The position numbers and the translations under genes were made by a program. A stretch of DNA of 64,000 bases, from assembly GCF_002846335.1 (NCBI RefSeq), contig NZ_PJMQ01000001.1:1984001-2048000 (forward strand), written 5' to 3'. The notes under the pieces were generated by a model. The model did no database searches. It saw nothing but the letters and a program-made list of their open reading frames with translations, and was not told the origin of the DNA. Shown here piece by piece: positions 36,559 to 56,131 of this stretch (position 1 is the stretch's first letter; the number at the start of each line of letters is the position of its first letter). This stretch comes from Janthinobacterium sp. 61. Its GTDB lineage: Bacteria; Pseudomonadota; Gammaproteobacteria; Burkholderiales; Burkholderiaceae_D.

Positions 36559-37598
36559 TGGCGGTCGCTCCGCTGGCCGCCCTGCACCGCAAGCTGTTTG
36601 ACGAAACGGATGGCAGCAAGTTCGCCCGGCTGAAGGAACGGCTGCTGAAAAAGCATGCGCCCGACGACCGGCTGGCCGTGCTGGACATTCTGATGGCGTA
36701 TGCGCGCGATGGGCAACTGCTGCACTGGCGCAGCTTCCTGATGACGGATATCGTCGCGCTGGTCGAACCCGGCGAGCACGGCACATTTTTCAGCTGGAGT
36801 CTCGAGATGGCCGGCCTCGCCTACTGGGGCGTCGATGGCATGCTCAAAAGCATGGGCAAAGCGGCGTATGGCCCGCTGCTTGCGCTGGCCACCGCAGAAC
36901 ATACCACGCTGAGCGTGCGGGCCAAGGCCGTGAAAAGCCTGGCCGTCTTCAGCCGCCAGCCTTTCGATGCAGGTTTGCCTTACGATCCCGGTCACTGGAA
37001 GGCAGAGCAGCTGCAACTGGACGCCGTACTGGCCTGGCAGCGCGATGGCTATCCGGATGGCGCAGGCCACGCGCTGCCCGCCACGCATGCGGCGCTCGAT
37101 GATCCGCGCACGCCACTGGAAAAAGCCGCGGCCATGCTGGATAAAAAGCTGGCGGCCAGACGCAGGAAAGAGCAGGACCTGGCGCAGCCATCGAACTGGC
37201 TGACCATCGCCAGCGCCGCCGACATGGCCGGCATCGCGCAACGCTGGGCCTTGCCGGAACACTACCGGCGCTTCCTGGCTTGCCATTCGCCGCTGCGGGT
37301 ATGTATCGACAGCCCACAGTATTTCCAGGGTTTGAGCCTGTACGGCGCGGCAGAACTGATCAAGGCTCAGCACGGTTACGCCTGGAATCCCGTCAGCGGT
37401 GACGCCATCGCCGGCTGGCCGGAACAGTACCTGGTGATTGCCGACGCGGGTGCCGATCCGTATTGCCTGGACCTGGGCGCCATTGCCGACGGCGATGCGC
37501 CCGTGTACACGGCCGAGCATGGCACGGGCGCATGGTGCTTCGAGCACCATGCGGATAGTTTCATCGACTTCCTGAACGAGATCGCGACAGCGGCCTAG
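36558..37598 (+). CDS. SMI1/KNR4 (SUKH)-like protein coupled to thyA
   Basis: A 346-residue soluble protein. The N-terminal 190 residues are helical and resemble HEAT-type repeats. The C-terminal part (about 215-340) looks like a SUKH/SMI1-KNR4 domain: LPEHYRRFLACHSPLRVCI at the start, LYGAAELI, a middle WPEQYLVIADAG with a following YCLDLGA, and a terminal DSFIDFL helix. SUKH proteins are frequent immunity proteins against nuclease toxins, but also occur in housekeeping settings. It begins within the thyA stop codon and ends overlapping the convergent TonB receptor gene (both stops share CTAG). No toxin gene is nearby. Confidence 0.75.
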   Translation: MAVAPLAALHRKLFDETDGSKFARLKERLLKKHAPDDRLAVLDILMAYARDGQLLHWRSFLMTDIVALVEPGEHGTFFSWSLEMAGLAYWGVDGMLKSMGKAAYGPLLALATAEHTTLSVRAKAVKSLAVFSRQPFDAGLPYDPGHWKAEQLQLDAVLAWQRDGYPDGAGHALPATHAALDDPRTPLEKAAAMLDKKLAARRRKEQDLAQPSNWLTIASAADMAGIAQRWALPEHYRRFLACHSPLRVCIDSPQYFQGLSLYGAAELIKAQHGYAWNPVSGDAIAGWPEQYLVIADAGADPYCLDLGAIADGDAPVYTAEHGTGAWCFEHHADSFIDFLNEIATAA

Positions 37599-39886
37599 CC
37601 TGCTTCGCCTGCCGGTCCGCCCGGGCCTGGACCGCCCGGCCCGCGTCCGCCGGGCGGGCCGAAACGCGGTTCCCGCTCGCCTTCTTTCGCCGCCGTGGTG
37701 GCGCCGCCGAGGCGGTACGACAGCCCCACATAAATCATGCGCCCATCGAAGCGGCGTGTGCTCGTCTCGCGCAAGGAGGCACTGTTGATGACGGTTTCCA
37801 TTTTGTTGGTGCTGAACACATCGGTCACATTCATGACCAGGCTCAGCTGCGGGGTTACCGTGTGGCGCAGACTGAGGTTCAAGGTGTTGTTCGGCGAGCG
37901 GTAGCCCTGTCCCGACAGCATCTTGCCTTGCATTTGCAGGGCCAGTTGCAGCTGGTTAGCCGGATTGATCTGGTAATTCAGGCGTGCGCGACCGCTCAGG
38001 GCATTCGCCGTGCGCGTGCTGCGGTTACCCAGGTCGTCCGAGCTGGTTTGCTGGCTGCGCGCCAGGTTGCCGCTCGTGTTCAGGGTCAGGGACGGCGTCA
38101 GCTTGCCGCTGACGCTGAATTCCAGACCGCTCGCATGGCTGCCTGCGCCGTTTTCGCGCGTGGTCAGCAGCACATTGTCGCTAATAAAATAGCGGTAATC
38201 GACGATGGCGTCCGTGTCGCGCCGGTGATAGGCGCGCAAGCTGCTTTCCAGGCCAAACAATTTGGTTTCATAGCCGATCTCGAACGAGTCCGTTTGCGTG
38301 GGTTTCAGCTTGGGATTGCCAGCCGACACATTGAACTCGTCGCGGTACACCACGTACGGGTTCAGGTCGCCCGCGTTGGGGCGGCGCAGGCGGTGCGCAT
38401 AACTGAAGCGCAAATTGCTCTCGTCGCTGACTTTATAAGTGGCGAACAGGCTGGGAATGTAATTGACGTAGTTGTTGCTGGCCTCGACGCCGCCCGTGAT
38501 CTGGCGCACGTTCAAGTCCGTGTATTCGGCGCGCAAGCCGGCCAGCGCGCCCCAGCGTTCGCTAAGGCGCATCTGGTAAGAGCCGTACAGCGCGATGGTG
38601 CGCTCATCCATCTCGAAACGATTGCTGCGCATGGGGTTGACGATCTCCGCCAGGCTGGCCGGGTTGATGTCCGTGTACAGGGTGTCGAAGCTGCTCTTGT
38701 TGTCGGCCACCTTGTAGCCCAGCTTGGCCGTGCCGCCCGCCAGCGGACGCTCGTAATCGCCGCTGAAGTCGATGATGCGGTTGCCCGTCTCGCTATGCTG
38801 GCGCGCGCGGCTGTCGAAGGCATTCACGGGCGTCACCGTGTAGGTGTTGGCGTAATCGCTGTCGCTCTCGTTGGTGGACGAGGACACGCGCAAGTCAATT
38901 TTGAGGGTTTCGCCCGGCAGTTCCCCCTTGTGGTCGTAGCGCGCGCCCCAGCTGTAATTGCGGCTGTCGCCATTGCGCACGGTGCTGCGCACATAGTCGA
39001 CTATGGTGCCGCCCATGGTGTCGCCATTGATGTAGCGGTCGAGCGAGCGCTGGTCGTTGCTGCGCCCGTTATACGACATGCTGGCGGCCAGGGTGTCATT
39101 CGTATTCAGGTTGTAATTCACGGTGCCGTGCAAGCCCAGCGAGTCATTCAAGCCATTGCTGATGGAGCTTTGGCTGCTGGGGGCAAAGGCACCCATACCG
39201 GGCTCCAGGCGCTCGCGGCTGACCTCGCCCACGGAATTGCGGCCGTCGTGGCGCACATTGATGCCGCCCTGGTAGCCCCACGGACCTTCATTGTAGCTGC
39301 CGGAGACGGCGCTGTTATAGCGCCCGGCAATGCCCGCATTCGCATTCACGGTGGCAAAGCCACCCGGCTTGCGGTTGCGCCGCATCACCAGGTTCAGAAT
39401 CGGGCCGCCACCGGCCTCGTTGCCGAACTGGGCGCCGGGATTGTTGATCACTTCCACCGATTCGATATCGTCCGCCGCCATGGCGTTCAGGGTGGCGCCG
39501 CGCGAGTCGCCCTGCAGCATGGCCGAAGGCTTGCCATCGATCAGGATTTGCACGTTGCTGCTGCCGCGCAGGGACACGGAACCGTCGGGGTCGACGGCCA
39601 CCGACGGTACATTGTTCAAGGCGTCGGCCGCCGTGCCATTGCTGCTACCCACGTCGGACTTGACATCGTAGACTTGCCGGTCGATGCGGCCCGTGGGACG
39701 CTCGGCCGTCACGCTGACGGACGGGGTATCGGTGGCCGGCGCCTTGGCCGATACTGGCGCTGGCGCTGGTGCTGGTGCTGGTGCGGGCTTGATGACGGTG
39801 TCGCCGGTGACAGTTTGCGCCTGAACAAAGGCGCCGGAGACCAGCAGGCTACTGCCCGCCAGACAGTGGAAAAGGATTTTATGCAT
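37595..39886 (-). CDS. TonB-dependent outer-membrane receptor (OMP_b-brl_3-like barrel)
   Basis: A 763-residue outer-membrane receptor. The signal peptide MHKILFHCLAGSSLLVSGAF runs to about residue 24, then a Pro-Ala repeat tract (about 35-46), a plug domain with NVPSVAVDPDGSVSLRGSSN and VEVINNPGAQFGNEAGGG, and a long barrel with YAHRLRRPNAGDLNPYV. It lacks a signal-transduction STN domain, so it probably does not control its own sigma factor. The C-terminal tail is Gly/Pro-rich (GPPGGRGPGGPGPGG), unlike most barrels, which end in Phe or Trp. Substrate unknown; the barrel type is common in receptors for peptides or siderophores. An exact CpxR-type box lies 112 bp upstream of the start. Confidence 0.9.
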   Translation of the reverse strand: MHKILFHCLAGSSLLVSGAFVQAQTVTGDTVIKPAPAPAPAPAPVSAKAPATDTPSVSVTAERPTGRIDRQVYDVKSDVGSSNGTAADALNNVPSVAVDPDGSVSLRGSSNVQILIDGKPSAMLQGDSRGATLNAMAADDIESVEVINNPGAQFGNEAGGGPILNLVMRRNRKPGGFATVNANAGIAGRYNSAVSGSYNEGPWGYQGGINVRHDGRNSVGEVSRERLEPGMGAFAPSSQSSISNGLNDSLGLHGTVNYNLNTNDTLAASMSYNGRSNDQRSLDRYINGDTMGGTIVDYVRSTVRNGDSRNYSWGARYDHKGELPGETLKIDLRVSSSTNESDSDYANTYTVTPVNAFDSRARQHSETGNRIIDFSGDYERPLAGGTAKLGYKVADNKSSFDTLYTDINPASLAEIVNPMRSNRFEMDERTIALYGSYQMRLSERWGALAGLRAEYTDLNVRQITGGVEASNNYVNYIPSLFATYKVSDESNLRFSYAHRLRRPNAGDLNPYVVYRDEFNVSAGNPKLKPTQTDSFEIGYETKLFGLESSLRAYHRRDTDAIVDYRYFISDNVLLTTRENGAGSHASGLEFSVSGKLTPSLTLNTSGNLARSQQTSSDDLGNRSTRTANALSGRARLNYQINPANQLQLALQMQGKMLSGQGYRSPNNTLNLSLRHTVTPQLSLVMNVTDVFSTNKMETVINSASLRETSTRRFDGRMIYVGLSYRLGGATTAAKEGEREPRFGPPGGRGPGGPGPGGPAGEAG
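39756..39786 (-). repeat. Hexanucleotide tract coding for Pro-Ala repeat
   Basis: Tandem GCTGGT/GCTGGC hexamers on the plus strand encode the (Pro-Ala) repeat just after the signal peptide of the TonB receptor. Slippage by whole units would change the length of this spacer without breaking the frame. Confidence 0.7.
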
Positions 39887-39997: not shown

Positions 39998-40012
39998 TTT
40001 ACTTCAATTTAC
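39998..40012 (-). promoter_or_regulatory. CpxR-type tandem box upstream of the TonB receptor
   Basis: On the minus strand the sequence reads GTAAATTGAAGTAAA, an exact GTAAA-N5-GTAAA, ending 112 bp before the receptor start codon and in the same orientation. The same motif occurs three times in the CpxR/CpxA-like locus of this window. Motif knowledge comes from enterobacterial CpxR. Confidence 0.55.
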
Positions 40013-40071: not shown

Positions 40072-41415
40072 CTATCTCAGCAAGCCCTTGCCGCGCGCCA
40101 GTGTCAGCCAGCCCGGATATTCCGTCATCAATAAGTCATACAGTTCCGCATCGCTGTGCTCGTCGGGCGAGCTGACGGAAAAGTAATTGGCGTTATCGAC
40201 CAGGCGTCCCTGCAGTTCGTCGAGCTTTTCCAGGAAGGGGAAGTCGGAATCGGCAAAGGCGGCGAGGAACTTGCTTTTCGATTTGCGTCCTTTGCCGATG
40301 CCCATGAATTGCCAGAAAATCGGCTCATTGCTGGCCCAACGCAACTGTTTCTCTGTCGTCGCCTGGTCGCTCGTGCCGCCATCGGTCACGAACATGACGT
40401 ACACGGGTAATTCCGCCGCGACCGCCCGCGTGCGCTCGCCGCCAGCCGCGTCGGGGAAATAGAACGCACGAATGGCTTGCATGGCAGCGCCATAACGGGT
40501 GTCGCCTTCCAGCGGGTGGCGCTGTATGGCTTGACCCACATAGCTATTGCAGTTGCTCAAGGCCATGGGCGCCGGATGGTGGACGTTCTTGCCGAACAAG
40601 AAAACATCGATCTCGCCATCGTCATCGAACTTGCAGCCCAAAGCGAGGATGCGCTCGGCAAAGCGCTGCACCAGGCCTTCTTTATACAGCCGTCCCATGG
40701 AACCGGAAATATCCAGACATAAACAGACCTTGGCGCGGTGGTCGGACAAGCCCACTTTTTGCAGGGACACGCCCGCCTGCTTGACCAGGCTGACCAGTTG
40801 CGGCGCTTCGCGTTCAACGCGCTTTTCCAGGTTGATCTTCGCCTGCATGACGGCCGAAGCCGCCGGGGCCGCCGCAGGAGCGGCCGGCGCGGCCTGGTCG
40901 ACTTCGCCGCCGAAATGGCGCACCAGCGCATCGAGGCCCCCATTGAAACCCTGGTCCACGGCCATGCAGCGCCAGCCGCCATCCTTGCGGTAGAGTTCCA
41001 GCAGCATGACGGCTTTTTCTTGCGCAAAATCAGACCCTGCAAAGGTAAAGCGGGCCAGTTCGCGCCCGCCCGCCTGCAAGCGCACGTGGCCAGCTTGCAA
41101 CTGCGACATCACGCCGCCGCCATCGATGGACGCCGTCACGACAAGGCGGTCGATATTGGCCGGCAAGCGCGCCAGCTGCAAGGCAAATTCTGCCATGTCG
41201 CCACCACTGCCGGCGCGCGCTTCCACGCCGCCGCACGGCGTGCGCGGTTGGTTGAAAAAAGTCATGTAGCGCTCGTCGGACAGCTTGCCCGCAGCATCGA
41301 GGCCAAAACAGGCCACGTCGAGCGCCAGCCCCTGCGCGGCAACGCCGACCTGCAGCACGCCATCGGGAACAAGATTGGCCAGCGGCAAGCGCTGACCCTT
41401 GGCCAAGGTTTCCAT
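40072..41415 (-). CDS. TerD domain fused to von Willebrand factor A domain (TerF-like)
   Basis: A 447-residue cytoplasmic protein. Residues 1-175 are a TerD-type domain (LPLANLVPDGVLQVGVAAQG to WRCMAVDQGFNGGLDAL), followed by an Ala/Pro-rich linker and a vWA domain (about 225-440) with a MIDAS motif DISGS at 235-239 and a later FVTDGGTSD. This is the architecture of TerF in tellurite-resistance gene clusters, proteins thought to assemble Ca2+-binding stress complexes at the membrane. It is the last gene of a three-gene operon, 9 bp after the TerA-like gene. Confidence 0.88.
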   Translation of the reverse strand: METLAKGQRLPLANLVPDGVLQVGVAAQGLALDVACFGLDAAGKLSDERYMTFFNQPRTPCGGVEARAGSGGDMAEFALQLARLPANIDRLVVTASIDGGGVMSQLQAGHVRLQAGGRELARFTFAGSDFAQEKAVMLLELYRKDGGWRCMAVDQGFNGGLDALVRHFGGEVDQAAPAAPAAAPAASAVMQAKINLEKRVEREAPQLVSLVKQAGVSLQKVGLSDHRAKVCLCLDISGSMGRLYKEGLVQRFAERILALGCKFDDDGEIDVFLFGKNVHHPAPMALSNCNSYVGQAIQRHPLEGDTRYGAAMQAIRAFYFPDAAGGERTRAVAAELPVYVMFVTDGGTSDQATTEKQLRWASNEPIFWQFMGIGKGRKSKSKFLAAFADSDFPFLEKLDELQGRLVDNANYFSVSSPDEHSDAELYDLLMTEYPGWLTLARGKGLLR

Positions 41416-41424
41416 CAGTGCCTC

Positions 41425-42678
41425 CTAGGCGATATAGCGGCGCGGATTGTCCGCATTGAAATCATCCTCATCGTCCTTGTCCTCACCCTTGAAGACGACG
41501 GGGCCATTGAAGACCAGCTGCAGGTTCTCTCCCTGCCAGCTCAGCCACGGCGTCGCTTCGCTGCCGGGATCGGACGTCTTGCCGGACGGCTCCAGGATAA
41601 TGCTATCCGGCGTGATGCGGGCCATGCCGATCACATAGGTGTAGACCGTGTCGTCCTCGGCCGCCTTGGACAGGCGGAAGTCGAAGTCGCACTCGACGAT
41701 TTGCTGGCCGTATTGCATGACCATTTTCGGCCGCATGGACGCCACCGGGACGGCGCCGTTGGCCAGCGCAGAATACACGCTGAAAACGAGGCCCACCGTG
41801 CCGCCGTAATGCTGCGCCAGCGCTGGATTGACTTCCACCGTTTCCGTGGCAGGCTCCTTGCCTGACGCGCCCGCCACATCGCCCAGGTGGCGTACATACG
41901 GCATGGCGTCAAAGCTGCCGGGCGTGTCCGGCGCCTGGATGAAGCGCATCTGGCCATTCGGCAAGAGGATGCCGACCCGCAAGTCGAGATCGTCGTTATC
42001 ATCGTCCCCATCGCCGTTATCGACCCAGGTGGCCTTGACGGTCAGTTTGCTGGGCGCGCCAGCGCCTTTTTCCAGCGACACCTTGTGCGTCTGGCCCGCC
42101 TTGGTCAGCGAGATTTTCGACAAGGAAATCTTGGGGGACGGCGCCGGTTCAGCGGCCGGCTGCGCCACTTCGCCGCCGAAATGGGCCACCAGCGCGTCCA
42201 GGCCACCATTAAAACCCTGGCCCACGGCCATGAAGCGCCAGCTGCCGTCCTTGCGGTAGAACTCGCCCAGCATGACGGCTTTTTCTTGCGCAAAATCAAC
42301 GCCCGCATACGCGTAGCGGGCCAATTCACGCCCGCCGTCGAGCAAACGCAGGTAGCCGCTGCCCAACTGCGCCATAGTGGCCGCGCCATCGATGGCGGCC
42401 GTGACGACCAGGCGTTCGATGGACGCAGGCAAACGCTCCAGCTGGTAGCTGAAGCCGGCCGCATCGCCGGACGGCGCCGATGTTTCCACGCCGCCGCACG
42501 GCGTGCGCGGCTGATTGAAGAAGGTCATGTAGCGCTCGTCGGACAATTTACCGGCGGCATCGAGGCCGAAACAGGCAAAGTCCAGCGGCACGCCGGCGCT
42601 GGCGAGGCCCAGTTGCACGACATTGCCCGTGACGAGGCCGGACAGCGCCAGGCGCTGCCCCTTGATCAGGTTTTCCAT
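41425..42678 (-). CDS. TerD-family protein with C-terminal TerA-like domain
   Basis: A 417-residue cytoplasmic protein. The first 180 residues are a TerD-type domain very similar to that of the downstream gene: both share GLDAAGKLSDERYMTFFNQP and then PRTPCGGVE, so they arose by duplication. The second half has an acidic segment (DNGDGDDDNDDLDLRVGI) and a TerA-like beta domain (CDFDFRLSKAAEDDTVYTYV). TerA/TerD proteins bind Ca2+ and are linked to tellurite, phage and colicin resistance. The ATG at 42678 is preferred over a further-upstream in-frame codon because homology begins there (MENLIKGQRL). Confidence 0.85.
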   Translation of the reverse strand: MENLIKGQRLALSGLVTGNVVQLGLASAGVPLDFACFGLDAAGKLSDERYMTFFNQPRTPCGGVETSAPSGDAAGFSYQLERLPASIERLVVTAAIDGAATMAQLGSGYLRLLDGGRELARYAYAGVDFAQEKAVMLGEFYRKDGSWRFMAVGQGFNGGLDALVAHFGGEVAQPAAEPAPSPKISLSKISLTKAGQTHKVSLEKGAGAPSKLTVKATWVDNGDGDDDNDDLDLRVGILLPNGQMRFIQAPDTPGSFDAMPYVRHLGDVAGASGKEPATETVEVNPALAQHYGGTVGLVFSVYSALANGAVPVASMRPKMVMQYGQQIVECDFDFRLSKAAEDDTVYTYVIGMARITPDSIILEPSGKTSDPGSEATPWLSWQGENLQLVFNGPVVFKGEDKDDEDDFNADNPRRYIA

Positions 42679-42775
42679 GGGATCAGGTAGTAAGAAGGGT
42701 GATACAAAGGATAAGCAAAACCGGGCAGCGTGGCCGCCCGGCAAAGGTACGCCCTTTCAGGCGTCAACATGCTTT

Positions 42776-49675: not shown

Positions 49676-51115
49676 ATGCAAAATTTCCCCTTTTCCCGCC
49701 GCCGCTTCCTCGGCTCCATGCTGAGCCTGGCCGGTACCACGGCCACCCCCTTCGCCATGAACCTGGCCGCCATGGGCAACGCCGCCGCGCAATCGGCCAA
49801 CGACTACAAGGCCATGGTTTGCCTGTTCATGGCAGGCGGCAACGACGCCTTCAACACGGTGCTGGCCACCGATACGACCTCATGGAATGAGTACTCGCGC
49901 CTGCGCAACACGGGCGGTGCCGATTCCATCCATCTGCCCGGCGTGGGCGAGACGGGCGGCGTCTTGCCGGTCACGCCCGCCACCGTGCAAACGGGCCGCG
50001 CCTTCGCCCTGCATCCCCAGCTGGCGCCACTGAAAGACCTGTTCGACAATGGCCGCGCCGCCATCGTGGCCAATGTAGGCACCTTGATCCAGCCCGCCAC
50101 TCTGGCGCAGTACAAGGCGGGCAGCGTCGCCCTGCCACCCAAGCTGTTCTCGCACAACGACCAGCAATCGACGTGGCAATCGGGTTCGCCGGAAGGCGCC
50201 AGCGTGGGCTGGGGCGGCCGAATGGCCGACGTGGCCGGCTCGCTCAATACGAATGCGATGTTCACGGCCATTTCCGCCGCAGGCAACACCGTCTTCCTCA
50301 GCGGGCGCCAGGTGCGCCAGTTCCAGGTGGGGCAGGCAGGTGCCGTGCCCATCCGTGGCCTGGGCGGCAGCCTGTATGGCAGCACGGGCGGCGCGGGTGC
50401 GCTGCAAGCGATCGTCAACGATGCGGGCAGCGACCTGATCGAACAGGAACACGTGGCCGTCGTGCAACGCGCCATTTCCAGCCAGAGCATCCTCAACGGC
50501 GCCATGCTGGCAGCCGGCGCGGGCGGCGTGCCCAATCCCCCACCCTACATCAATCCGAACACGGGCGTGTCCGGTGTCAATCCGCTGGCCGTGCAATTGC
50601 AGACGGTGGCGCGCATCATCGGCGGGCGCGGCGCCCTGGGGGCGAAACGGCAGGTGTTTTATGTGACACTGGGCAGTTTCGACACGCATGACCGGCAAAA
50701 AGTGCTGCATGCCGACCTGATGGCGCGCCTGGCGCACGCGCTGGCGTATTTCGACGCGACACTGGCCGCCCTGCAGGGCGCGGACGTGCGGCGTCAGGTG
50801 ACAACGTTTACGGCGTCGGACTTCGGCCGCACCTTCAGCAGCAATGGCGACGGCACGGATCACGGCTGGGGCGCGCACCACTTTGTCGTGGGCGGCGCCG
50901 TGAAGGGCCGCGACATCTACGGCACCTTCCCCGTCACGGGGCTGGGCCATGCGCTCGATGTCGGTTCCGGCGCCCTGCTGCCGACCACCTCCGTCGACCA
51001 GTACGGCGCCACCCTGGCCAAATGGTTCGGCGTGGCCGACAGCCAGATGGCCGAGGTGTTCCCGAACATCGGCAACTTCAGCCGGCGCGACCTGGGCTTC
51101 ATGACGGCAACTTAA
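49676..51115 (+). CDS. DUF1501 family Tat-exported protein
   Basis: A 479-residue protein with a twin-arginine signal (SRRRFLGS at residues 7-14, cleavage near AAAQSA). The mature protein has the sulfatase-like DUF1501 fold: AMVCLFMAGGNDAFNTVL at the start, GRAFALHPQLAPLKDL, FSHNDQQSTWQSG, GSFDTHDRQKVLH, TASDFGRTFSSNGDGTDHGW and a following GAHHFVVGGAVKG. These keep the metal-ligand-like Asp/His residues. It is paired with the DUF1800 lipoprotein gene upstream. Its stop overlaps the convergent dioxygenase-like gene by 4 bp. Confidence 0.92.
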   Translation: MQNFPFSRRRFLGSMLSLAGTTATPFAMNLAAMGNAAAQSANDYKAMVCLFMAGGNDAFNTVLATDTTSWNEYSRLRNTGGADSIHLPGVGETGGVLPVTPATVQTGRAFALHPQLAPLKDLFDNGRAAIVANVGTLIQPATLAQYKAGSVALPPKLFSHNDQQSTWQSGSPEGASVGWGGRMADVAGSLNTNAMFTAISAAGNTVFLSGRQVRQFQVGQAGAVPIRGLGGSLYGSTGGAGALQAIVNDAGSDLIEQEHVAVVQRAISSQSILNGAMLAAGAGGVPNPPPYINPNTGVSGVNPLAVQLQTVARIIGGRGALGAKRQVFYVTLGSFDTHDRQKVLHADLMARLAHALAYFDATLAALQGADVRRQVTTFTASDFGRTFSSNGDGTDHGWGAHHFVVGGAVKGRDIYGTFPVTGLGHALDVGSGALLPTTSVDQYGATLAKWFGVADSQMAEVFPNIGNFSRRDLGFMTAT

Positions 51116-51972
51116 CCGTTCACGGCCACCGTCAGGGTCGCCACATAGCCCTCTGTGGCATCGCCCGTTACCGCGGCCATCTGCAGGCAGGTGCCGTCGC
51201 GGAAGATATTGTCGGAGGCATAGCTGATCTGCGCCAGGTTGTGCACGCTGGCCGTGTAGCCGCTGGCCGCGTAGACCTCGCTTAACGTTGCCATCGGAAA
51301 GGTGAACTGCGAGGTCTTGAGGCGGTTCGCGGCAGAGGCCGCCTTGGCCAGGCTGGGATAGACCTCGAGATGCACGTGCGGCATGCGCCCCGCGTAGCAG
51401 CCGGGAAAGATCGTCGTGAAGGCAAGGTTGCCGGCGCTGTCCGTTTCCTGCACGCCCCGCAAATAATTTTGCGCCGTCACGCCGCTCGAATACAGCGAAT
51501 ACTGGCCGTCGCGGTCACAATGCCATAAATAGACGGCGTAGCCGGCCAGGCTGGCGCAGCTGCCGCTGGCGTTGAGCAACTGCAGCTTGATAGTGAGTGG
51601 CACGCCCGCCGCCATACCCGTGGCGCCATTAAAACTGGCGCGAATATCGCTGCGCACCACCCCCGACTGGTTCAGCACGTTGATGATGCTGCCGCCATTC
51701 GTATTCGTGCCGTCGGCCGGATACGGCCCACCCGTTTCTTCGGGGATCACCGGACAGGCGCCCACCGTCGGTATCGTGACGGTGCCGCTGCCGGAAATGC
51801 CTGTGCTGGCAACGCTGGCTGCCACCGTGCCGCTGGCGTCCGAACCGCCGCCGCAGCTGCTCAGGGGCAAGGTAGCGGCGCCGGCCAGCAGCCAGCGCAG
51901 GACTTGCCGCCGCTCAACCGCATGGCGCATCATTTCGAGGTCGGATGCCAGACCGTGATCATGTAATTCCAT
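51112..51972 (-). CDS. Intradiol ring-cleavage dioxygenase-like Tat lipoprotein
   Basis: A 286-residue exported protein. A twin-arginine motif (RRQVLRWLL, from residue 21) runs into a lipobox Cys at residue 40, so it is probably a Tat-exported lipoprotein. The mature part matches the intradiol dioxygenase fold: CPVIPEETGGPYPADG, YLWHCDRDGQYSLYSSG, FPGCYAGRMPHVHLEV. The Tyr/His ligands of the iron centre seem to be present. Classical members cleave catechols in the cytoplasm; exported members have unknown substrates. It is at the end of the minus-strand cluster that begins with the Spy-like gene. The ATG at 51972 has a GGAA site upstream. Confidence 0.82.
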   Translation of the reverse strand: MELHDHGLASDLEMMRHAVERRQVLRWLLAGAATLPLSSCGGGSDASGTVAASVASTGISGSGTVTIPTVGACPVIPEETGGPYPADGTNTNGGSIINVLNQSGVVRSDIRASFNGATGMAAGVPLTIKLQLLNASGSCASLAGYAVYLWHCDRDGQYSLYSSGVTAQNYLRGVQETDSAGNLAFTTIFPGCYAGRMPHVHLEVYPSLAKAASAANRLKTSQFTFPMATLSEVYAASGYTASVHNLAQISYASDNIFRDGTCLQMAAVTGDATEGYVATLTVAVNG

Positions 51973-52094
51973 ACATATTCCAACAAGTGGGGCAAACCCG
52001 CCAAGGCAGGACTCAGGCTGGCGCACAGGAACAGCGCCTGCGTGGCCCGTGGCGAGAGCGCCTTCCTGGCAACCAGGGCGAGCTTGCGTTCCAT
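51930..52094 (-). CDS. Possible 54-residue small protein
   Basis: An ATG-started open frame between the Ser-rich gene (3-bp gap) and the dioxygenase-like gene (43-bp overlap). It encodes a basic head MERKLALVARKAL, a hydrophobic helix (FLCASLSPALAGLPHLLEYV) and an aromatic tail WNYMITVW. Third codon positions in the first half are G/C-rich, like real genes here. There is no Shine-Dalgarno sequence, but translation could be coupled to the gene above. Could also be chance. Confidence 0.35.
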   Translation of the reverse strand: MERKLALVARKALSPRATQALFLCASLSPALAGLPHLLEYVWNYMITVWHPTSK

Positions 52095-52097
52095 GGT

Positions 52098-52745
52098 TCA
52101 GGCCGTTGTATTGACCAGGTTGCCGCTGGATGGCAGGCTGGCACTGCTGCCGGAAGCCCCCAGGCTGCCCGATAGCGCCTGCAAGAAACTGCTCAACTTG
52201 GCGCTGCTGTCGCCGCTGGTGCTGGCGCCGCCGCCCAAGGCAGTGATCAGACTGGAGAAGCTTGATTGCAAGTCCGAAACGCTGCTGTTATCGCTGCCCG
52301 TGCCGGACGACAGGGTCTGGATCAGGCTTTGCAAGTCCGATTTGATATTGCCATGCCCCCGTGCCCGTACCCCGCCGCCGTCCTTGTCGCCGTCCTTGTC
52401 TGCGCCGGCGCTGGCGCCAGAGCCACCCTGGGCATGCAGGCTACCCATCAACTGGTGCAGGAACGCTCCCAATGCCTGGCCGGCATCGCTGCTGCCGGCG
52501 GTGCTGGTGTCGGCGGTGCTGGTGTCGGCGCCAGTGCTGTCGGACGATACCGTGTCGGGCAGCGTCACGCCGATCGACGACAGTGCGCTGGAAACGGCAT
52601 CGAGAAAGCCCTTATCGTCCTGCCTGGGCGGCCGCGCGCCGCCCACGCTGTCGGCGCTGCCGGTATTGCTGCCGCTGACGCGGTTGAAAGCACTCAGCTG
52701 GGTAGCGGCGCTGCTGGAACTCAAGGCACTGATGCTCATGCTCAA
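52098..52745 (-). CDS. Ser/Gly/Ala-rich protein of unknown function
   Basis: A 215-residue low-complexity protein 23 bp downstream of the Spy-like gene. It begins MSMSISALSSSSAATQLSAF, has no signal peptide or membrane helix, and alternates disordered Ser/Gly/Asp tracts (ADKDGDKDGGGVRARGHG) with short amphipathic helices such as FLDAVSSALSSIGV and ALGAFLHQLMGSLHA. Repeated motifs of the form LQSLIQTLSSGTGS and LQSSFSSLITALGG suggest internal duplication. An exact 15-bp tandem repeat lies inside. I do not recognise the family. Operon position predicts control by the CpxR-like regulator. Confidence 0.7.
   Translation of the reverse strand: MSMSISALSSSSAATQLSAFNRVSGSNTGSADSVGGARPPRQDDKGFLDAVSSALSSIGVTLPDTVSSDSTGADTSTADTSTAGSSDAGQALGAFLHQLMGSLHAQGGSGASAGADKDGDKDGGGVRARGHGNIKSDLQSLIQTLSSGTGSDNSSVSDLQSSFSSLITALGGGASTSGDSSAKLSSFLQALSGSLGASGSSASLPSSGNLVNTTA
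52501..52530. repeat. Exact 15-bp tandem duplication in the Ser-rich gene
   Basis: GTGCTGGTGTCGGCG occurs twice back to back and encodes an ADTST repeat on the minus strand. In-frame slippage would vary protein length. Confidence 0.85.
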
Positions 52746-52768: not shown

Positions 52769-53275
52769 TTACTGGGGACGGTGCGGGCCGGGGCGGCTGT
52801 CGCGCCGCTGCTGCGCCTGCTTGCGTTGCTCCGGCGTCAGCACGGCCAGCAATTGCTGCTCCAGCCGCGCATGCAGCAAGCTGATCTGCGCCAGGGCTTG
52901 CGCCGCCGTACTCGCCAGTGCGCTGGCCTTCGCATCGTCATAGGCGCTGGATCCTGCCAGCTCGCGCAACTGCGCATGCGCCTTGAAGGCGATTTTTTCC
53001 TGTTCGCGCAGCAAGGGCGCCTGGGCGTAGGTGGCGGCGAAAACCTTGTCCTGCTGCGCTTCGCTCAGATCGATGCCGTGCAGAAACGGCGGCAAGCCTT
53101 GCGCGCCGGGGCCGCCCGGACCGTGACCGGGGCCATGGCCAAAGCCGGGTGGCGGCCCCGGCATGGCGCGCGGCGGCGTGCCGTCCGGCGCAGGCTCCTG
53201 CTGGGCCAGTGCGAGCAGCGGCATGCTGCAGGCGGACAGCAGCAACAGGGATACGGCGATACTCAGGTGTTTCAT
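52769..53275 (-). CDS. Spy/CpxP-like periplasmic protein
   Basis: A 168-residue exported protein. The N-terminus MKHLSIAVSLLLLSAC contains a possible lipobox (LSAC, Cys 16), but a Sec cleavage site after ALAQ is an alternative. A Pro/Gly/His-rich spacer (GHGPGHGPGGPG, potential metal binder) leads to the Spy/CpxP helical domain: GIDLSEAQQDKVFAATY and the LTPEQRKQAQ version of the LTxxQ motif. Spy/CpxP proteins are periplasmic chaperones, and CpxP inhibits the CpxA sensor. The gene is divergent from a CpxR/CpxA-like pair and two CpxR boxes lie between them. AAGGAAA precedes the ATG. Confidence 0.85.
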   Translation of the reverse strand: MKHLSIAVSLLLLSACSMPLLALAQQEPAPDGTPPRAMPGPPPGFGHGPGHGPGGPGAQGLPPFLHGIDLSEAQQDKVFAATYAQAPLLREQEKIAFKAHAQLRELAGSSAYDDAKASALASTAAQALAQISLLHARLEQQLLAVLTPEQRKQAQQRRDSRPGPHRPQ

Positions 53276-53344
53276 TGGGTTTTCCTTTCGTGGCGACCAG
53301 CCCTGATTGTCGGCGTCTGGCATGTAAAGCAACGTTAGGCTGGG

Positions 53345-53359
53345 GTAAAAGCGTGTAAA
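53345..53359 (+). promoter_or_regulatory. CpxR-type tandem box 1 in the divergent promoter
   Basis: GTAAAAGCGTGTAAA, an exact match to GTAAA-N5-GTAAA, the CpxR site known from enterobacteria. It lies 70 bp upstream of the Spy-like start and 110 bp upstream of the response-regulator start. An extra half site GTAAA is at 53324-53328. Confidence 0.75.
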
Positions 53360-53388
53360 GGAAGGGGCGGAAATGTAAGCAGAGGTAT

Positions 53389-53403
53389 GTAAAAGCGGGT
53401 AAA
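53389..53403 (+). promoter_or_regulatory. CpxR-type tandem box 2 in the divergent promoter
   Basis: GTAAAAGCGGGTAAA, a second exact GTAAA-N5-GTAAA, 44 bp from box 1 and 65 bp upstream of the response-regulator ATG. A GTAAG half site at 53375-53379 lies between the two boxes. The arrangement suits autoregulation of the pair together with the Spy-like gene. Confidence 0.75.
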
Positions 53404-53468
53404 ACCGTCCTGAACAGCCCCCCTTGACTGCTATCATCGGGCGATATTCACCCGAAAAAAGCACAGGC

Positions 53469-54158
53469 ATGAGCAAGGTTTTGTTAATCGATGACGACGT
53501 GGAACTGGTTGGCATGTTTCAGGAATACCTGACGCAGGAAGGTTTTGACGCCCGCGCCGTGCATGACGGCGAAAGCGGCGCGGCCGAGGCACTGACAGGC
53601 CTGTACGCCATCGCCGTGCTCGACGTCATGATGCCGCGCATGAATGGCCTGGAAACCCTGCGCCGCATTCGTGGCGGCAGCAACCTGCCCATCCTGATGC
53701 TGACGGCACGCGGCGACGACACGGACCGCATCGTGGGCCTGGAGCTGGGTGCCGACGATTACGTGACCAAGCCGTGCACACCGCGCGAGCTGACGGCGCG
53801 CATCCGCGCCATCCTGCGCCGTTCGCAAGCGGCGCCGCACGATAGCTCGGGCCTGGCGCCGCTGACCGTGGGGCAACTGACGATGTGGCCGGAACAGCGC
53901 CGCATCGCCTGGGCCGGCACGCACCTGGAACTGACAAGCACTGAATTCAACCTGCTGGAAGTGCTGGTGCGCCATGCGGGCAAGCCCGTGAGCAAGAATC
54001 AGTTGTCCGAACTGGGCCTGGGCCGCCCCATGGCGCGCTTCGACCGCAATATCGACGTGCACTTGAGCAGCCTGCGCCGCAAGCTGGGCAGCCTGGCCGA
54101 TGGCCGTTCCTGCCTGCAGACCGTGTACCGTCTCGGCTACCAGCTGATCAAGGAATAA
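53469..54158 (+). CDS. OmpR-family response regulator, CpxR-like
   Basis: A 229-residue response regulator. The receiver domain has the acidic pocket DDD (8-10), phospho-acceptor Asp 52 (LDVMMP) and conserved Lys near 102 (YVTKPC). The winged-helix DNA-binding domain ends with NIDVHLSSLRRKLG and VYRLGYQLIKE. The overall sequence, including LTSTEFNLLEVLVRHAG and KPVSKNQLSE, is close to CpxR, the regulator of envelope stress. Divergence from a Spy/CpxP-like gene and CpxR-type boxes in its promoter support this. It is 2 bp from the sensor kinase gene. Confidence 0.9.
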   Translation: MSKVLLIDDDVELVGMFQEYLTQEGFDARAVHDGESGAAEALTGLYAIAVLDVMMPRMNGLETLRRIRGGSNLPILMLTARGDDTDRIVGLELGADDYVTKPCTPRELTARIRAILRRSQAAPHDSSGLAPLTVGQLTMWPEQRRIAWAGTHLELTSTEFNLLEVLVRHAGKPVSKNQLSELGLGRPMARFDRNIDVHLSSLRRKLGSLADGRSCLQTVYRLGYQLIKE

Positions 54159-54160
54159 GC

Positions 54161-55666
54161 GTGGGCCGTCTGTTCTGGAAGTTTTTTCTGTGCATCATGC
54201 TGGCGCAAGTCACGGCCACCATCGGTATCGGCGGCACTTTCTGGCTGAAAAACCGGGCGGCGCAACAGGAGCGGGCCCTCGACATCGATACCAGCCCGCC
54301 CGCACAGATGGCCATCGAAGCGGCCAGCGCCACCCTGGAAGCGGGCGGCAGCAAAGCCTTGCAGCAGTTTCTCGGCAAGATGGAACGCATGCGCGTATTT
54401 GCCGTCGATGAAAAAGGACAAGAACTGATGGGCCGCAAGGTCCATCCGGCCATACTCGGCAAGGCGCGCGCGCTGCTGGCGCAAGGCTCGCCCCATGCCG
54501 TGGTGCGCGAGGTCATCGGCAGCGACGGCGTGCGTTACCTGCTGTTCCTGCCCTCGTCCGTCCGCTTTCGCACTGCCGAGGCGGGCGCCGCGCGCGACAC
54601 GCTCAACGCCGTCACCCTGAGCGGCCCGCGCGGCATGGGCGCCCCCCGTTCCGAAGCGTCCGGCATGCCGCCGCCGCACGCCGACTACCAGCGCGGAGGT
54701 CCGCGCGAGATGGGTGGCATGGGCGGCATGCCGCCGGGACCGCGCATGGACAACCCCTACCGCACCTTCATTCCCCTGGCCGCCGCCATCGCCGCCAGCC
54801 TGCTGTTCTCTTTCTTGCTGGCCTGGTATTTTGCGCGTCCCATCCGCGACCTGCGACAAGCGTTCGAGGCCGCCTCGCACGGCGACCTGGCGCCCCGCTT
54901 TCACGCCAGCGGCAAGCGCGGCGATGAATTGACGGACCTGGGCCGCGATTTCGACCGCATGACGGGTCGTTTGCGCAATCTCATGGAGAGCCAGACGCGT
55001 TTGCTGCATGACGTGTCGCACGAACTGCGCTCGCCGCTGGCACGCTTGCAAGCGGCCATCGGCCTGGCGCACCAGCAGCCGGACAAGATGGACGCCTCGA
55101 TGCAGCGCATCGAACGCGAAAGCGAACGCATGGATAAGCTGATCGGCGAGCTGCTGACCCTGTCGCGGCTGGAAGCTGGCGCTGGCTCACCGCTCAGCGA
55201 AGACGTCGGCATCGCCGACCTGTTGCACGACATTATGGAAGACGCCCGCTACGAAGCGAAGGCGCGCCAGGTGGAGATAGCCCTCGCGGGCGACGCGGCC
55301 ATCGCCGACGCCGCTGTCACGGGCCGGCCGGAGCTGCTGGCGCGCGCCGTGGAAAACGTGGTGCGCAATGCCGTCAAGCACAGTCCCGATGGCGGTACGG
55401 TGGAAGTGAATTTGTCGCGCCAGCATGATTGGCTGCGCATCGCCGTGCTGGACCGGGGACCCGGCGTCGCAGGTGCCGACCTGGCCAGCATTTTCCAGCC
55501 GTTCTTCCGCGCCAGCAATACCCAGCACAGTACGGACGGCCATGGCCTGGGCCTGGCCATCGCCCAGCACGTCATCAGCGCCCATGGCGGGCGCATCGGG
55601 GCCAGCTTGCGTAGCGGTGGCGGGCTGTGTGTGGAAATGTTGCTGCCCACCAAAACGCCAGGCTGA
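54161..55666 (+). CDS. Membrane histidine kinase, CpxA-like
   Basis: A 501-residue sensor kinase with a GTG start. One membrane helix at about 8-28, a periplasmic domain to residue 200, a second helix at about 204-224, HAMP (225-278), the phospho-acceptor His 287 in HDVSHELRSPLARLQ, and an ATPase domain with N-box ENVVRNAVKHS, DRGPGV and GHGLGLAIAQHV. It is paired with the CpxR-like regulator. The periplasmic domain ends in an unusual Gly/Met/Pro-rich segment (about 150-200, e.g. MGGMGGMPPGPRM) not present in enterobacterial CpxA, which could bind metal or a partner. The Spy-like protein next door is a candidate inhibitor. Confidence 0.9.
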   Translation: MGRLFWKFFLCIMLAQVTATIGIGGTFWLKNRAAQQERALDIDTSPPAQMAIEAASATLEAGGSKALQQFLGKMERMRVFAVDEKGQELMGRKVHPAILGKARALLAQGSPHAVVREVIGSDGVRYLLFLPSSVRFRTAEAGAARDTLNAVTLSGPRGMGAPRSEASGMPPPHADYQRGGPREMGGMGGMPPGPRMDNPYRTFIPLAAAIAASLLFSFLLAWYFARPIRDLRQAFEAASHGDLAPRFHASGKRGDELTDLGRDFDRMTGRLRNLMESQTRLLHDVSHELRSPLARLQAAIGLAHQQPDKMDASMQRIERESERMDKLIGELLTLSRLEAGAGSPLSEDVGIADLLHDIMEDARYEAKARQVEIALAGDAAIADAAVTGRPELLARAVENVVRNAVKHSPDGGTVEVNLSRQHDWLRIAVLDRGPGVAGADLASIFQPFFRASNTQHSTDGHGLGLAIAQHVISAHGGRIGASLRSGGGLCVEMLLPTKTPG

Positions 55667-55707: not shown

Positions 55708-56049
55708 TTACGCCTGGGTATCGATGATGCTGCCCAGGGTCGACGAGCTTGATTTGGCCGGACTCGTCGCCGTATCGGCGCTGCTGGTCGTCTGAGGAGC
55801 TTGCTGCGCCGCCTCTTGCGCCGCTGCCGCCTGTAACTGGGCAATTTGCGCCTGCAAGGCCTGGATTTGTTGCGCCAACTGCTGCTGCAGCTTTTGCGAC
55901 GCGTCCGTCTGCGCGCCCTTCTGCGATTCCGTCAACTGCTTTTGCGCCGCCGTGATCTGCTTTTGCAGCGCCGCGATCTGCGAACTGCTGCCCGAGCTGG
56001 CGCTACTTGCCGCACTGACCGCGCTGCCTGAACCGATTGCCGCTACCAT
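55708..56049 (-). CDS. FlxA-like coiled-coil protein
   Basis: A 113-residue protein: Ser/Ala-rich head, then a long Gln-rich heptad pattern (IAALQKQITAAQKQLTESQK and QIQALQAQIAQLQAAAA), and a Ser/Thr-rich tail. This is the pattern of the FlxA-like family, originally a flagellar-regulon protein of unknown function. There is no signal peptide or membrane helix. It converges with the CpxA-like gene. An exact CpxR-type box lies 68 bp upstream of its start, so it should respond to the same stress signal. The downstream dcd gene is a separate minus-strand unit. Confidence 0.75.
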   Translation of the reverse strand: MVAAIGSGSAVSAASSASSGSSSQIAALQKQITAAQKQLTESQKGAQTDASQKLQQQLAQQIQALQAQIAQLQAAAAQEAAQQAPQTTSSADTATSPAKSSSSTLGSIIDTQA

Positions 56050-56116: not shown

Positions 56117-56131
56117 GTAAAGGCAGGTAAA
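56117..56131 (+). promoter_or_regulatory. CpxR-type tandem box upstream of the FlxA-like gene
   Basis: GTAAAGGCAGGTAAA, an exact GTAAA-N5-GTAAA, 68 bp before the start codon of the minus-strand FlxA-like gene. The box is oriented opposite to the gene, as box 1 is relative to the Spy-like gene. Confidence 0.65.

Follow-up and report, generated by a model that had tools for sequence, protein, structure and literature searches.

In Janthinobacterium sp. 61, a gene pair resembling cpxRA and a gene resembling spy or cpxP face away from each other across an intergenic region that carries repeated GTAAA words, which raises the question of whether this region is the operator of a Cpx system. The stretch analyzed, here called the window, comprises 64,000 nucleotides of contig NZ_PJMQ01000001.1 (positions 1,984,001 to 2,048,000), and its host was identified as Janthinobacterium by the closest named relatives of the regulator (97–98% identical). 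Comparison of sequences points, with a probability of about 0.9, to an orthologous Cpx envelope-stress system of which this is the regulatory region, and in which CpxR is predicted to bind the boxes described below.

The start codons of the divergent pair are at 53275 (− strand) and 53469 (+ strand), and the boxes lie between them. The two exact copies of GTAAA-N5-GTAAA reported in a first-pass annotation are confirmed, both on the + strand. The distal candidate CpxR box, GTAAAAGCGTGTAAA (53345–53359, at −124), was recognized by pattern match and conservation, and the proximal one, GTAAAAGCGGGTAAA (53389–53403, −80 from the regulator start codon), by match, conservation and word control. Four exact matches occur on both strands of the window, these two and one each at 39998–40012 (−) and 56117–56131 (+), and 100 dinucleotide shuffles of the window gave none. 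A half site had also been proposed at 53375. The word there is GTAAG, one mismatch from GTAAA, and its partner at 53385, GTATG, is weak; together they form a weak possible box, GTAAGCAGAGGTATG (53375–53389, +), seen by eye in this sequence alone. A consensus promoter scan of 53200–53500 gave no match.

Conservation was assessed in loci sampled by the regulator protein, independently of the box. A family set (regulator match at E 1e-60 in 44 of 145 genomes), an order set (match at E 1e-50 in 56 of 250 genomes) and a named-contig set (the best 80 contigs among the matches listed) yielded 182 loci, all with a regulator match, of which 168 are distinct over the last 150 base pairs (bp) upstream. 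In 135 of the 168, the 300 bp upstream contain an exact box in the orientation of the regulator gene. The proportion follows the identity of the regulator: 108/108 loci at 70% or more, 17/22 at 60–70%, 5/12 at 55–60%, 4/16 at 50–55% and 1/10 at 40–50%. On the opposite strand the exact box occurs in 0/168 loci, and shuffling predicts at most 0.05 loci per identity band. Six loci with a regulator less than 50% identical were placed in the tree described below, and four are of OmpR type. The first-pass annotation had made its proposal depend on the boxes being conserved in related genomes, and they are kept in every locus in which the identity of the regulator reaches 70%. In genome G110 (L161, L270), no exact box stands directly before the regulator, and a same-strand EF-hand gene just upstream carries tandem boxes.

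Could such A/T-rich repeats have arisen by chance and lack function? The count that favors this idea is genome-wide: the host has 12 exact boxes, compared with 7 matches to a reversed control pattern, and single boxes elsewhere may for that reason be chance. At the regulator's promoter, however, chance was ruled out by word and spacer controls made on the 300 bp upstream in 134 distinct loci with a regulator at least 58% identical. When N5 direct repeats of all 1024 five-letter words were counted, GTAAA came first with 128/134 loci and the runner-up, TAAAA, reached 38. Among spacers from 0 to 25, the GTAAA repeat was found in 128 loci with N5, 57 with N16, 20 with N19, 14 with N9 and 8 with N6, and in at most 6 with any other. 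The exact box has a density of 4.95 per kilobase (kb) upstream and 0.037 per kb elsewhere in the same loci, and it keeps to one strand. The earlier judgment that an exact repeat of this kind is improbable by chance is borne out by the word ranking and the shuffles, and we consider a functionless origin hardly credible.

The N16 class reflects a further element. In 57/134 loci, two GTAAA words start 21 bp apart (spacer 16), and in 52 distinct arrays the five letters 10 bp downstream of the upper GTAAA have the frequencies G1.00 T0.98 T0.54 A0.92 G0.83, a GTTAG-like partner; the consensus of the upstream half is TGTAAAGC. These arrays were selected on a GTAAA 21 bp above the exact box, and the partner lies outside that selection. 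Because the partner is kept across the 52 arrays, the candidate CpxR box GTAAAGCAACGTTAG (53324–53338, +; its start 21 bp before that of the first exact box), previously described as a half site, is instead a conserved degenerate full box. It lies two helical turns above the exact box, an arrangement compatible with a pair of neighboring regulator dimers on the same face of the helix, which may cooperate. Among six periods tried for box-to-box spacing, 11 bp gave R 0.67 for all 74 spacings, or 0.44 when each of the 28 distinct values was counted once (p about 0.005); with p uncorrected and the lineages not independent, this is suggestive only of strict helical phasing.

The gene to the right of the boxes (53469–54158, +) encodes a cpxR-type response regulator of 229 amino acids (aa) with Response_reg and Trans_reg_C domains. 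In a one-way search of the 6-Mb genome, E. coli CpxR matched it best (197 bits, with the next protein at 168), at 46% identity. A tree of 57 rows places E. coli CpxR in one group (support 100/97) with 36 regulators of Burkholderiales, that of the window among them, and E. coli OmpR, RstA, CreB, ArcA, BaeR and PhoB fall outside together with seven paralogues from the host genome; branches are long for several of the outside rows, and the tree is rooted at its midpoint. The NCBIfam CpxR model is the best for this protein, yet the score is below the equivalog cut-off (213 bits of 341), which may have been set for enterobacteria. The tree and the one-way best match indicate that the regulator is orthologous to E. 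coli CpxR.

The adjoining gene (54161–55666, +) encodes a cpxA-type sensor kinase of 501 aa with a HAMP, HisKA and HATPase_c core, for which the best NCBIfam models are those of CpxA, below cut-off. The CpxR/CpxA-like identity given to the pair in the first-pass annotation is upheld by this core, the tree and the best match. A Met/Gly-rich metal-sensing insert was considered in the kinase and dropped, since 80 relatives have a variable, Gly/Pro-rich linker at this place. The periplasmic PAS-like domain (about 54248–54586) was modeled, and its closest match in the PDB is 2va0, a Cellvibrio two-component sensor whose title mentions xylan degradation and which we take to be that of AbfR/AbfS. The model thus suggests a sensor domain more similar to the Cellvibrio protein than to CpxA.

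On the other side of the boxes, a periplasmic protein of 168 aa is encoded at 52769–53275 (−), and it matches Pfam Metal_resist above the cut-off. NCBIfam Spy ranks first (38.5 of 174 bits) and CpxP scores 24.7 of 160, so that neither cut-off is reached. The best PDB matches of its structural model are Spy, CpxP and CnrX, with a Foldseek probability of 1.00, E values of 0.0075 and up, and template modeling (TM) scores by target mostly of 0.6–0.7. Two LTxxQ-type motifs, LSEAQ and LTPEQ, can be seen by eye. The divergent gene was therefore rightly called Spy/CpxP-like, and the model suggests a helical cradle fold of the Spy/CpxP type and a putative chaperone.

The sensor and the Spy-like protein also bear on another explanation, namely that the system is Cpx-like and functionally different, a CpxR-family regulator being coupled to an AbfS-like sensor that responds to nutrients or metals and not to misfolded envelope proteins. 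The likeness to 2va0, with its link to xylan degradation, is in line with this, as are a TonB receptor among the conserved box-bearing genes and the fold of the Spy-like protein, which also matches the metal sensors CnrX and ZraP besides belonging to Metal_resist. Against it, the Spy/CpxP-type gene is divergent like cpxP in E. coli, the regulator groups with CpxR, and PAS-like folds are common to many sensors, so that a shared fold shows no function. We regard a nutrient or metal sensor as unlikely, and favor the Cpx envelope-stress system.

Comparison with known systems leads in the same direction. In E. coli, as here, the chaperone gene cpxP is divergent from the regulator–kinase pair, and the single exact box of E. 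coli K-12, GTAAAACAACGTAAA, lies at −70 on the strand of cpxR, close in arrangement to the box at −80 on the regulator's strand in the window. The two loci differ in that E. coli has one exact box and the window has two exact boxes and at least one degenerate box. Moreover, the window chaperone and kinase have Gly/Pro-rich linkers, an extra neighbor gene conserved in many relatives is present, and the sensor domain is only distantly similar to that of CpxA. With Cellvibrio AbfR/AbfS, the comparison covers the modeled fold of the sensor domain alone.

In Pseudomonas aeruginosa, a box GTAAA-N4-8-GTAAA lies upstream of cpxP, and CpxP is nearer to Spy than to E. coli CpxP (PMC5063474, PMC12802237). 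The CpxR/CpxS/CpxP locus there differs from the window, where one pair is present, in that the kinase and regulator genes flank cpxP and cpxR has an operon partner of its own (PMC12802237). Neisseria MisR/MisS is described as CpxR/CpxA-like, with the consensus KWWWTGTAARGNNWH (PMC7286886); this has the half TGTAAAG in common with the window box, and, compared by description only, it is a single half site whereas the window has a strict 10-bp direct repeat. Judged by titles and the start of abstracts, no study of such a system was listed when CpxR was searched together with Herbaspirillum, Janthinobacterium, Burkholderiales, Massilia, FlxA or Oxalobacteraceae, and CpxR combined with betaproteobacteria and Spy found no paper. 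The system had been called conserved and undescribed in this betaproteobacterium. The first part stands (108/108 loci at 70% identity or more); the second needs correcting, since one report already places Cpx systems throughout the alpha-, beta- and gammaproteobacteria and states that cpxP and cpxAR diverge in most loci (PMC12802237). The locus thus adds a well-supported case to a known type of Cpx system, and it is the set of targets that may be new.

Two candidate targets are found in the window outside the promoter. A FlxA-like protein of 113 aa is encoded beside the kinase (55708–56049, −), and the exact box GTAAAGGCAGGTAAA (56117–56131, +) lies at −82 from its start codon. A TonB-dependent receptor (PF14905, PF00593, PF07715) is encoded at 37595–39886 (−), with the exact box GTAAATTGAAGTAAA (39998–40012, −) at −126 from the start codon. 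The third candidate is an EF-hand gene of relatives. All three were chosen after the box had been seen, the first two in G000, G048 and G123 and the EF-hand gene in G018 and G139. Genomes were scored as being without the regulator when no match at E 1e-60 appeared among at most 20 candidates per genome. A renewed search of 12 of these (the whole EF-hand set of 11, the whole FlxA set of 3 and, from the TonB set, only G045) gave best matches of only 40–43% identity, like the paralogue of G048.

Among 16 family genomes with the FlxA-like gene, the box is present in 12/13 with the regulator, at −80 to −99, and in 0/3 without. The gene is away from the regulator in 3 of the 13, at about 880 kb in G106 and on other contigs in G133 and G019; two of these three have the exact box and G019 has only half. 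A same-strand exact box accompanies the TonB receptor in 14/22 genomes with the regulator and 0/8 without (30 genomes with a homologue). Within the regulator genomes, it is found in 14/16 receptors at least 59% identical (G067 and G108 are without) and in 0/6 of the lower ones. One of these six, in G018, has a box on the other strand. In G045, which lacks the regulator, the matching position reads GTAAG-N5-GTAAG, which looks like a decayed box. For the EF-hand gene, counted by strand and with three second matches (L282–L284) excluded, the box occurs in 5/5 genomes with the regulator and 1/11 without, the exception being G045. With the first-seen genomes excluded, Fisher tests that treat related genomes as independent gave p 0.014 for the FlxA-like gene (9/10 vs. 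0/3), 0.011 for the EF-hand gene (3/3 vs. 1/11) and 0.008 for the TonB receptor (11/19 vs. 0/8). The boxes of all three follow the presence of the regulator even where unlinked, and the regulator may control these genes.

This co-occurrence also weighs on the suggestion that another OmpR-family regulator, for example an OmpR-type paralogue, binds the motif, which would then lie beside the CpxR-type gene by coincidence. Binding to direct repeats is common to OmpR-family regulators, and in G048 the best paralogue shows 42% identity. However, the genomes left with a 40–43% paralogue are those with the box at 0/3 FlxA-like and 1/11 EF-hand genes, and the same box lies at E. coli cpxR itself. Another regulator is accordingly very improbable, and the CpxR-type protein is the expected ligand.

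A genome-wide search for GTAAA-N5-GTAAA, proposed earlier as a check, did not reveal broad enrichment. Beside the host count given above, eight relatives with the regulator have 81 exact boxes against 59 for the control. The extended box TGTAAAG-N4-GTAAA occurs 41 times against 18 in the 44 regulator genomes and 33 times against 45 in the 101 others (p 0.002). However, 22 of the 41 sites are those of cpxR, FlxA-like, EF-hand and TonB genes, and the other 19 equal the control. Because the 22 known sites use up this surplus, nothing in the exact boxes hints at additional targets, and a large exact-box regulon was not seen; the counts cover exact and extended boxes.

Among the other eight sites of the host genome, two are in coding frames (L011, and L002 by its G048 counterpart), one is beside a T-rich run, one precedes a phage-like gene and two overlap each other. 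The overlapping boxes (L007 about 1501–1525; host genome 2464118–2464142) consist of three GTAAA words at intervals of 10 bp, in DNA with no evident gene, and are also present in G048. The phage-associated site, TGTAAAGCAACGTAAA (L001 1501–1515; host genome 1033883–1033897), is 14 bp before the gene, and the identical 16 letters occur in G048, G072 and G092, with the context known for G048 alone. In single genomes, exact boxes (L247, L218, L204) stand before genes that by eye resemble C-terminal-processing proteases (G106, G018) and an RND efflux operon (G129).

Several neighbors deserve mention. A Ser/Gly-rich protein of 215 aa, without a match in Pfam or NCBIfam, is encoded next after the Spy-like gene (52098–52745, −), and the gap of 23 bp makes one transcript likely. 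Its family, with an MSISALSSSS-like start, a proline run in many members and a GNLVNTT-like end, follows the Spy-like gene in many relatives; in L205 (G142) a gene resembling this family, not spy, is divergent from the regulator. Third in the row is a Dioxygenase_C (PF00775) protein (51112–52026, −), and similar genes were seen by eye nearby in several relatives. The FlxA-like (55708–56049), EF-hand (L243 532–1395; L244 1621–2751) and 215-aa proteins, all box-linked, appear by eye to have a common start, M-(V/S)-x-S-I-(S/G)-S, and no signal peptide. Next to the TonB receptor, at 40072–42744 (−), lie a gene with TerD and TerF-type vWA domains (40072–41415) and, after it, a second gene whose start is similar by eye.

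For the Cpx system as a whole, we infer phosphorylation, binding, the direction of regulation and the stress signal. Cpx cues include alkaline pH, misfolded periplasmic protein and a block in secretion. Upon periplasmic damage, the CpxA-type kinase would phosphorylate the CpxR-type regulator, whose dimers would bind head to tail on the two exact boxes and at least one degenerate box. The bound regulator would then activate the divergent Spy/CpxP-like chaperone gene together with the gene next to it and modulate cpxRA; through the identical box it would also affect the FlxA-like gene and the TonB receptor.

It may further be that the Cpx system of Oxalobacteraceae has a lineage-specific output, consisting of the Spy-like chaperone, the Ser/Gly-rich FlxA-like, EF-hand and 215-aa proteins and the TonB receptor, together with phased tandem boxes and an AbfS-like sensor. 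We put this forward tentatively, at somewhat less than even odds; if true, the response would differ from enterobacterial Cpx in both input and output. The locus offers a precisely placed and well-conserved candidate CpxR operator in a family for which no Cpx study was found in the literature searched, together with a few candidate targets of unknown function that can be put to the test. Where the regulator is missing, the loss of its boxes would amount to a natural experiment on how a regulon dissolves.
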